Assembly (NCBI RefSeq): GCF_014873145.1
Contig: NZ_JADBEK010000001.1
Coordinates: 4,774,001 to 4,838,000 of the forward strand
Source of the DNA: Nonomuraea angiospora
Lineage (GTDB): Bacteria > Actinomycetota > Actinomycetes > Streptosporangiales > Streptosporangiaceae
DNA length: 64,000 nucleotides
Reading direction: 5' to 3'
Both the position numbers and the translations under genes were made by a program. The notes beneath the pieces are model-generated. The model searched no databases, was not told the origin of the DNA, and saw nothing but the letters and a program-made list of their open reading frames with translations. Below, in pieces: positions 32,375-37,255 of the stretch; position 1 is the first letter of the stretch; each line of letters starts with the position of its first letter.

Positions 32375-34825
<2,451 letters not shown>

Positions 34826-34864
34826 GGCTACTGTCCTTCTGGCTTGATTCGGACCCATAAGAAA

Positions 34865-34889
34865 ACCCCCCGTGCACACAACGAGGGGT
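34865..34889 (-). terminator. Intrinsic terminator in the leuS leader
   Basis: A 9-bp stem with one G-U pair and a 7-nt loop is followed directly by TTTTCTT on the minus strand. It lies 40 nt upstream of the leuS GTG, where a terminator makes sense only as an attenuator. Confidence 0.75.
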
Positions 34890-34909
34890 AGCCGCGACGG
34901 CGAGAATCT

Positions 34910-34954
34910 TCAGGGCCGTCGCGGCCCGCTAAGAAGCAGGGTCGCGGAACGCAT
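34910..34954 (-). CDS. leuS leader peptide with three consecutive Leu codons
   Basis: The 14-residue ORF MRSATLLLSGPRRP has codons CTG-CTT-CTT for Leu in a row; CTT is rare in this DNA. The ATG is 6 nt after the -10 box TAGGCT, so ribosomes would start on a leaderless RNA. Its end codes for the 5' arm of the hairpin that follows, so a ribosome at the stop codon would mask that arm. Confidence 0.6.
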   Translation of the reverse strand: MRSATLLLSGPRRP

Positions 34955-35245
34955 GTGTCAAGCCTAGCGCACGTCTTCGGCTGAATGCAGATACTCGATC
35001 GAGGTCCGCAGGCACAATGGACCCTTCAGGTCCAGCGAGACCTGATGGTGATGTATCCGTTGTGACCTCATTCGTCCCCTATGAATACCCTTGTCACCGT
35101 GGTGTACCCAGTTGAGCCCGAGCGACCGGAGGCCGGCCTGCCCATGCAGGACCCGCCGACGGATCCGCATGGCTTCGCTCGTTTCGCTGCGGAACCACCT
35201 GTATCTCCTGGAAAATCCCATGAGATCATGCCTGGTACGTCAAAT

Positions 35246-35267
35246 CCGGATATAACGGGCTATCCGG
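35246..35267. promoter_or_regulatory. Inverted repeat before the Trp-Pro-rich protein gene
   Basis: CCGGATA (35246-35252), eight bases, then TATCCGG (35261-35267). The left arm runs into TATAAC, a possible -10, so a protein bound here could block transcription. It lies 11 bp before the AGGAGG ribosome site. Confidence 0.5.
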
Positions 35268-35293
35268 ACAGATCTTCAGGAGGGCCGGCAGCA

Positions 35294-37255
35294 ATGGCAA
35301 CGGAGAATTCCGGACCACACCTGCCACCGTCCTGGCCAGACGCACCGCGCCGCGACGCGCCCGGCTCCCCCGCAACGGAGGTCCCCATGTCCTGGCCCGA
35401 GGCCCCGAGGTCCGCTCAGCAGGACCCGGCGTGGCCCGAGCCGCCACGCAAGGACGACTCCTGGCCGGAGCCGCCGCGCCGGGCCCGCCCCGAGCCCGGC
35501 CGTTCCGAGGCCGGGGGCCCGCAGTCGTGGCCGGACCTGCCGCCCCAGGGCGCCACCGGACCCTCCTGGCCGGCCCCGCCGGCCCGCGACGCCACCGGAC
35601 CGTCCTGGCCCGAGCCCTCCCCGCAGGGCGCCTCCGGACCGACCTCCTGGCCGGACGTGCCACCCCCGAGCGCGGCGGGCCCGTCCTCCTGGCCCGACTC
35701 GTCCCCGCAGAGCGCCGGACCGACCTCCTGGCCGGAGGCGTCGCCGCAGAGCGCGCCGACCGCCTGGCCCGACTCCCCTCAGAACGGCCCCTCCTCCTGG
35801 CCCGACTCCCCGCAGAACGGGGCGTCCTCCTGGTCCGACTCGCCGCCGCAGAACGGCCCGTCGTCCTGGCCGGACGCCGCGCCGCAGAGCGGGCGCTCCA
35901 CCCGGTCCGACCTTCCACTCCCCGGCGGGCCGTCCTCATGGCAGGACGGGCCGCCTCAGCAGGGCAGCGCCGGGCCGTCCTCCTGGCCCGAGTCGCAGGC
36001 GCGGGGCGGCCCGGAGTTCGGCTCGCGGGGCGAGGATCGCCCGGTGCCGGACCCGATCCCGGCCTGGGAGCAGCCGCCCCCGTCCGCCGACTCCTGGTCG
36101 AACCTCTCCTCCCCCGCCCCCTGGCCCCCCGCTGAGCGGGACAAGGCCGGCTTCCCGGAGCAGGCGACGGCGATGTACCAGGTCGACGACCTCCCGCAGG
36201 GCGCGCACGCGCCACCGCGGCAGGCACACCCCTCCGAAGAGCGGACGATGACGTACGCCCAGCACACGGAGAACCTGCTCAACGACCGCGCCGCCCCCTC
36301 CACCCCGAACATGGACCCGTCGAACATCAGCGCCACGCCCCCCGCCGAGGACACCGACGCCCCGCGCCCCGGCTCGAACCTGAACCGCGACCCCTCGGAC
36401 CCCGACCGCCCGTTCGTGACCGCAGGCCAGATCAGCGGCTCCCGCACACCGCCGCCCGAGCGCCAGCAGGAGCTCTGGAACACCGTCTTCGGCGACAACT
36501 ACCAGGCCATGGATGACCAGGACCTGGAGGAGGAGAGCCAGGGCAGGCCCATCTGGATCTACGCGCTCGGCGGCTCCGTGGCGATCGCGCTGGTCGCGGC
36601 GCTGCTGTGGGCGTTCCTCGCCGGCCCGCTGGCCAGTGACGACCCGGCGACCTCCAACGCCGTGGCCGAGAAGCCCACGACCCCGCCGAAGCCGAGCACC
36701 ACGAGGTCCTCGACCACGATCGGCGCGCTGCCGAGATACCCGGGCAAGGCCGCCCCGGTCATCGGCAGGGTGCCCGACGCCGCCGCCGGGATCTCGCTCC
36801 CGCGCCTGGGCGGCACCTGGCGGCTGGACACGCGCACCACCGTCAAGGCCACCTACAACTACGACACCCGCCAGTTCGTCCCGATCACGCAGGACACGAG
36901 CGCCCAGCTCATGTCGGGCCCGCTGCCGCAGAAGCTGGCCTCGTACTACGAGAAGGACAACCTGGAGCCGGTCATCAAGCAGGTGGTGCTGGACGCGCGC
37001 AAGCGCTTCTTCCCCACCGGCAACCAGGTCCGCAAGATCGCCCAGCAGCCGATCAAGGTGGGCGACAACACGGGACGGCTGATCGCGTACTCGCTGACGT
37101 CGGAGAGCGAGAAGGCCACGATCGTGACGATGGCCGTCAACACCGGCGGCAACCTCCCGGCGATCGTCTACATGTCGATCCCGGCGGACAGCAAGCAGCT
37201 CCTGCCCGACATCCGCACGGTCATGAACCAGCTGAGGATCGGCGCCCAGGGCTGA
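35294..37255 (+). CDS. Trp-Pro-rich single-pass membrane protein of unknown function
   Basis: Residues 1 to about 420 of this 653-residue protein are disordered, dominated by Ser-Trp-Pro repeats (GPSSWPDSPQN, GPTSWPEASPQS and the like, some 20 SWP/TWP/AWP units). One transmembrane span follows (WIYALGGSVAIALVAALLWA), then a Thr/Pro stalk and an extracytoplasmic domain of about 190 residues (ISLPRLGGTWRLDTRTTVKA to MNQLRIGAQG). The start is set by AGGAGG at 35278-35283; an ATG at 35081 would add 71 residues without a ribosome site. The long cytosolic Trp-Pro tail suggests a docking role. The stop abuts the P450 stop (TGATCA). Confidence 0.8.
   Translation: MATENSGPHLPPSWPDAPRRDAPGSPATEVPMSWPEAPRSAQQDPAWPEPPRKDDSWPEPPRRARPEPGRSEAGGPQSWPDLPPQGATGPSWPAPPARDATGPSWPEPSPQGASGPTSWPDVPPPSAAGPSSWPDSSPQSAGPTSWPEASPQSAPTAWPDSPQNGPSSWPDSPQNGASSWSDSPPQNGPSSWPDAAPQSGRSTRSDLPLPGGPSSWQDGPPQQGSAGPSSWPESQARGGPEFGSRGEDRPVPDPIPAWEQPPPSADSWSNLSSPAPWPPAERDKAGFPEQATAMYQVDDLPQGAHAPPRQAHPSEERTMTYAQHTENLLNDRAAPSTPNMDPSNISATPPAEDTDAPRPGSNLNRDPSDPDRPFVTAGQISGSRTPPPERQQELWNTVFGDNYQAMDDQDLEEESQGRPIWIYALGGSVAIALVAALLWAFLAGPLASDDPATSNAVAEKPTTPPKPSTTRSSTTIGALPRYPGKAAPVIGRVPDAAAGISLPRLGGTWRLDTRTTVKATYNYDTRQFVPITQDTSAQLMSGPLPQKLASYYEKDNLEPVIKQVVLDARKRFFPTGNQVRKIAQQPIKVGDNTGRLIAYSLTSESEKATIVTMAVNTGGNLPAIVYMSIPADSKQLLPDIRTVMNQLRIGAQG

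Follow-up and report, generated by a model that had tools for sequence, protein, structure and literature searches.

The analysed window, a 64,000-nucleotide stretch of Nonomuraea angiospora contig NZ_JADBEK010000001.1 (positions 4,774,001 to 4,838,000), carries on its minus strand the leucyl-tRNA synthetase gene leuS (34825-32375), starting with a GTG at 34825. Its product scored 936 bits against the NCBIfam model TIGR00396 leuS_bact (cut-off 548), and the nearest named LeuS was that of Nonomuraea jabiensis, with 98% identity. An ATG at 34858-34856 (minus strand) is in frame with leuS upstream of the GTG and is unlikely to be the true start; the GTG was preferred because one extra G in L002 and L062 shifts the upstream ATG (34858) out of the leuS frame. 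Upstream on the same strand, a -10 box read from the sequence as TAGGCT (TANNNT type, 34966-34961) is separated by a 6-nt spacer, TGACAC, from the ATG at 34954 that opens a leader peptide gene (34954-34910, minus strand; codons ATG CGT TCC GCG ACC CTG CTT CTT AGC ... TGA) encoding MRSATLLLSGPRRP. The regulatory Leu codons CTG CTT CTT (34939-34931, minus strand) are kept in aligned leuS leaders. Five nucleotides past the last of them begins an 11-bp hairpin, h1, drawn from sequence and covariation, with its 5' arm (34925-34915) inside the leader ORF and its 3' arm at 34901-34891 on the minus strand. An intrinsic terminator (34889-34857, minus strand), recognized from sequence, folding and covariation, follows at a distance of 1 nt, with the stem ACCCCTCGT / ACGGGGGGT and then TTTCTTAT; its arms (34889-34881 and 34873-34865) form 9 bp, one of which is a T-G pair.

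An initial annotation of the region had listed the TAGGCT box, the 6-nt spacer, the ATG, the three Leu codons, a hairpin, the terminator and the leuS GTG, and all were confirmed in the sequence. It was also right on the 9-bp terminator stem, counting the T-G pair, and in placing the 5' arm of the first hairpin in the codons past the Leu run; that hairpin, given there as 10 bp, is 11 bp long. Transcription of the leader is probably leaderless, with a start at or next to the ATG at 34954, as suggested by the sequence and by the reported leaderless counterpart in Streptomyces lividans (PMC8079986, accessible part). An Rfam scan of 34000-36000 gave no T-box match, even at E 10, and the only two Rfam matches in this interval were far under the gathering score and judged to be chance.

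The combined leader pattern (TANNNT, 5-7 nt, ATG or GTG opening up to 21 codons that include LLL, and a terminator after them) had a single occurrence in the window, whereas 100 dinucleotide shuffles gave none. In the transcript from the ATG, h1 and the terminator folded together at -54.2 kcal/mol (z -1.78), and 10 of 200 shuffles folded as well, so that folding energy alone is weak evidence. An alignment was considered separately, comprising 43 distinct leuS leaders from loci with a script-found leader and terminator (45 were listed, and two long ones, L055 and L095, were left out), whose rows are related by descent and had been preselected for LL and for TANNNT 5-8 nt ahead of the start. Cells of h1 and the terminator were paired in 96.3% of cases, where shuffles gave 84.6% and slid controls 38-57%, and 11 of the 18 pairs had changed on both sides. 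Pairing reached 94.8% for h1 alone, with both-side changes in 8/11 pairs, and 98.7% for the terminator alone, with such changes in 3/7 pairs. Three Leu codons were kept in 40 of the 43 rows and two in three rows, with synonymous changes in each position, in a set preselected for LL; the TANNNT-to-start spacing was 6 nt in 41 rows and 7 nt in two, within the preselected range of 5-8 nt. Conserved Leu codons and covarying stems, which the initial annotation had proposed to look for in relatives, are thus both present. At the level of sequence the observation was confirmed as real, conservation being the deciding evidence.

Among 80 named LeuS loci, 64 had the -10 box, the Leu leader and the terminator in the right places according to the script; a 65th match, L068, was judged spurious. 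Four further loci were recognized by eye as variants: L086 with split Leu codons, L108 with LVL, and L093 and L102 with a single CTA Leu codon. The leaders of the latter two (Arthrobacter sp. NIO-1057 and Glutamicibacter) read MHPKRNLV and MNSQHNLA, each then ending at a stop codon, and keep the terminator. The 12 loci without a leader belonged to Nocardiopsis/Thermobifida (six), a Nanopelagicales bin (one) and Microbispora/Planotetraspora (five). Of the 68 named loci that have a leader, 65 showed a strict terminator; among the 12 lacking a leader only one did, and its hairpin was a different one. In the five Microbispora/Planotetraspora loci (L049, L054, L059, L068 and L084) the leuS leader looks decayed by eye, with no in-frame start codon, a Leu run down to two codons and no clear U tract, and the script found no strict terminator in them. 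Three Nonomuraea loci (L042, L019 and L024) have about 120 extra bases between the terminator and the leuS start, placing the leader ATG at -247 or -248, vs about -127 in other Nonomuraea.

A covariance model built from leuS leaders only, R1, matched 188 of 296 genomes of the class and 13 of 149 phylum-sample genomes (eight of the same class, own genome included, and five others), under stricter filters with which weak matches are lost. The downstream gene was established for all 71 matches examined, a non-random set of the 30 best-scoring, 40 picked among the other matches listed and a second site in the own genome: LeuS in 39, CimA in 16, IlvB in 14, and LeuA and LeuC in one each. All 30 best-scoring matches precede LeuS. 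Family models confirmed eight of the nine lower-scoring LeuS, the LeuA, the LeuC, one CimA and one IlvB; the ninth LeuS, L156, has masked bases and matched only to itself, and its label rests on reading by eye. The matches to the leuA and leuC leaders were weak. Leu runs characterize the leuS leaders, and the cimA and ilvB leaders have Ile/Val-containing runs, for example VLIIV, III and LII in cimA and ILVL, ILVV and LLV in ilvB. The best evidence for the codons as the sensor is that a model trained only on leuS picks up other genes, each with codons of its own. A TANNNT box opened the R1 match in just 4 of 14 ilvB and 1 of 16 cimA rows, so that the leaderless layout was established from sequence for leuS alone.

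The second site in the own genome lies ahead of a citramalate synthase gene (L141:1501-1611, contig C1 5978985-5979095, minus strand), where a leader encoding MFYGLLIIGRRAG up to its stop codon, h1 and a terminator are laid out as at leuS; no TANNNT box opens the R1 match at this site. A limited literature search found no paper on a cimA leader. Leucine attenuation of leuS appears to reach well past Streptomyces, and one layout is common to leuS, ilvB and cimA leaders.

Spacing within this layout was fairly constant. The distance from the last regulatory codon to h1 was 4-6 nt in 51 of 58 parsed leuS rows, 4-7 nt in 11 of 14 parsed ilvB rows and 4-6 nt in 10 of 14 parsed cimA rows; in the remaining four cimA rows a trailing Val codon was counted, and h1 lies 4 nt from the last Ile. 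The spacing script failed on nine leuS and two cimA rows and on the leuA and leuC rows, and misread one ilvB row. A gap of 0-1 nt between h1 and the terminator was found in 55/58 leuS, 14/14 ilvB and 13/14 cimA parsed rows, a closeness that is partly built in because the script looked for h1 no farther than 5 nt from the terminator. Other dimensions of the parsed leuS rows were variable, the stop codon falling 0-27 nt past the run and h1 measuring 24-121 nt in length. A hairpin 5 nt beyond the A-site codon is located roughly at the ribosomal mRNA entry site. With the foot of h1 in about this position, a stall on any regulatory codon should therefore leave h1 closed, and moving on should open it.

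Attenuators of leuS were predicted in S. avermitilis and S. coelicolor in 2005 (PMC1262725), and in S. lividans TK24 the leader LeuL2 (MRAVRLLLSEPR) ahead of leuS was reported in 2021 to be transcribed leaderless, with a hairpin and a U stretch (PMC8079986), according to the accessible parts of both papers. Contrary to the initial annotation, neither a leader peptide for leuS nor a leaderless one is therefore new. Its interpretation stood as far as a conserved and covarying Leu-codon leader with a leaderless-looking start and a terminator before leuS is concerned; the novelty and the proposed antiterminator, discussed below, did not. Here, as in the accessible descriptions of the Streptomyces attenuators, a short ORF with a Leu run lies upstream of leuS, followed by a hairpin and, between leader and leuS, an intrinsic terminator with a U run. 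The start is leaderless in S. lividans leuL2-leuS, per the accessible text, and leaderless-looking here, whereas the lineage and the peptide after the Leu run differ. The LeuL2 sequence was found as the leader in two R1-matched genomes (L123 and L128), and the profile is common to both in that R1 matches genomes whose leader upstream of LeuS equals that of S. lividans. The locus joins the already described Streptomyces-type leuS attenuators, and no difference of kind was found.

Related leaders precede other genes. As far as the accessible parts of the papers go, the C. glutamicum ilvBNC leader (PMC11857589; ilvB-II motif, PMC10272879) is similar in its branched-chain codons and in a hairpin adjoining the terminator; that its leader begins one base away from where transcription starts is counted as another likeness to the leuS leader. 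Described for it in addition are a shared GCC and one more hairpin, an anti-antiterminator, whereas no conserved shared base was seen in the leuS leaders. The M. tuberculosis ilvB1NC leader has branched-chain codons (LVVI), a terminator and a ribosome-mediated model, differs in its gene, ilvB rather than leuS, and gave a low and unresponsive reporter upon codon replacement (PMC13236596, accessible part). The LEU element of actinobacterial leuA shares a leader with a Leu run and is described, in the accessible part of PMC1262725, as a pseudoknot in which the Leu run pairs with the Shine-Dalgarno sequence.

By sequence and analogy, the leuS leader is very likely a leucine-responsive, ribosome-mediated transcription attenuator, because h1 and the terminator covary, R1 reaches widely, and the examined matches precede leuS, cimA, ilvB, leuA or leuC with fitting codon runs. 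Several readings of how the terminator is controlled were weighed. In the model of the initial annotation, h1 extended outward by AGCGG/CCCCT takes the terminator 5' arm as a true, mutually exclusive antiterminator. The window contains four of these five pairs, AGCGG could stay unoccupied while the ribosome is on the first Leu codon, and in nascent RNA without the terminator 3' arm h1 was extended by a different short helix, AGCG/CGUU (MFE -26.5 kcal/mol, inner pairs included, compared to -23.9 kcal/mol for the h1 pairs alone). Across the 43 leuS leaders, however, 52.1% of the AGCGG/CCCCT cells were paired, a rate that matches the shuffle mean; there was no both-side change, and C-C stood at its centre in every row. 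When a ribosome is positioned on the first Leu codon, AGCGG/CCCCT adds 0.7 kcal/mol to h1 in the window RNA downstream, where the terminator adds 14.4, and its pair probability in competition with the terminator was 0.0, making this model highly unlikely. A classical trp-type attenuator, in which a stall would free the h1 3' arm or another unrecognised region to pair with the terminator 5' arm, has general precedent, and antiterminators are marked for Streptomyces leuS in the accessible part of the 2005 paper (PMC1262725). Against it, the h1 3' arm folded with the terminator 5' arm and loop no better than shuffles (mean z +0.47, 43 leaders), and no helix of at least 4 columns joined the terminator 5' arm to the upstream region, with at least 75% paired in leuS or at least 80% in ilvB or cimA. 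The mutually exclusive antiterminator and terminator of the classical trp/his type did not emerge from these conserved-helix searches, and this reading seems rather unlikely.

Competition at the edge, as in the 'fast' attenuator of C. glutamicum ilvBNC, where adjoining antiterminator and terminator hairpins vie for a few shared base pairs, is suggested by the similar adjoining layout and has published mutational support in C. glutamicum (PMC11857589, accessible part). In leuS, the stems are nevertheless at least 1 nt apart in 20 of 58 parsed rows, and no conserved shared base was seen in the 43 leaders; a rather low probability was given to this explanation. In another reading, h1 would do no more than pause RNA polymerase or assist the terminator, and control would be exerted by translation or Rho. 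This would fit the position of h1, where a pause hairpin could act, and the failure to find an antiterminator. Yet leader and conserved terminator occur, or are missing, as a pair, a sign that control acts at the terminator, and this reading was rated quite unlikely.

Two other pairings were considered in the search for an antiterminator. The leuS leader (columns 27-30) could pair with the terminator 3' arm in 88.4% of cells, which equals shuffles (88.3%), with no both-side change, and it was rejected; the complementarity occurs in leuS and ilvB, was not seen in cimA, and was judged to arise because CU-rich leader bases face a G-rich arm. Four pairs between the start-codon region and the h1 5' arm were formed in 89.0% of cells vs 87.6% in shuffles, one pair having changed on both sides in three rows. 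A 7-nt match of CGGCUAC in the h1 3' arm to GUAGCCG at the leuS start was noticed by eye in the window and is absent in L016. A conserved antiterminator was not found in leuS, ilvB or cimA by sequence comparison; a weak or lineage-specific one may exist.

Since no conserved antiterminator was found, the reading proposed here is ribosome-mediated attenuation in which position would matter and a closed h1 would block the terminator foot. For the transcription start, the stalling, the direction of the response and the opposition of h1 and terminator, we infer the following course. RNA polymerase would start on the leader ATG or right beside it; a ribosome would load directly on the 5' end, reading MRSATLLL. 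With charged tRNA-Leu short, it would stall on the Leu codons and h1 would stay closed, adjoining the terminator and keeping its foot from closing inside RNA polymerase, with read-through and leuS on; a ribosome past the Leu codons would open the foot of h1, so that the terminator foot closes, transcription terminates and leuS is off. The opposition is an assumption because h1 and the terminator, as folding indicates, are compatible and coexist in free RNA. Taken by itself, the step in which the ribosome position relative to the h1 foot sets the terminator is put forward only tentatively. Changing the start codon of the C. glutamicum ilvBNC leader is reported to cut expression by 80% (earlier work cited in the accessible part of PMC11857589), which speaks against the simple closed-h1 model because that model predicts read-through without translation, although the C. 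glutamicum leader has its further hairpin. It is conceivable, if doubtful, that a single attenuator class without alternative base pairing unites the leuS, ilvB and cimA leaders of actinomycetes; in it, a hairpin abutting the terminator and left intact by a stalled ribosome (or the ribosome docked on this hairpin) would physically block the terminator foot, and the hairpin would be opened once the regulatory codons are passed. A brief literature search on steric hairpin effects on termination gave nothing plainly on point. Because the searches revealed no conserved antiterminator, leaders of this layout lend themselves to asking in vitro, in a simple way, whether hairpin position alone is enough for attenuation.

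Two minor observations concern other loci. The own genome has two T-box matches (contig C1, 12069311-12069528 on the plus strand and 11906150-11906317 on the minus strand), scoring 71.9 and 44.9 bits, under the gathering score of 93 set by Rfam. Genome G036 has two kinds of LeuS-like frame, 894 and 991 codons long and next to each other on contig C124 (22515-27871); genome G030 likewise has two, of 817 and 1001 codons, on contigs C9 and C2.
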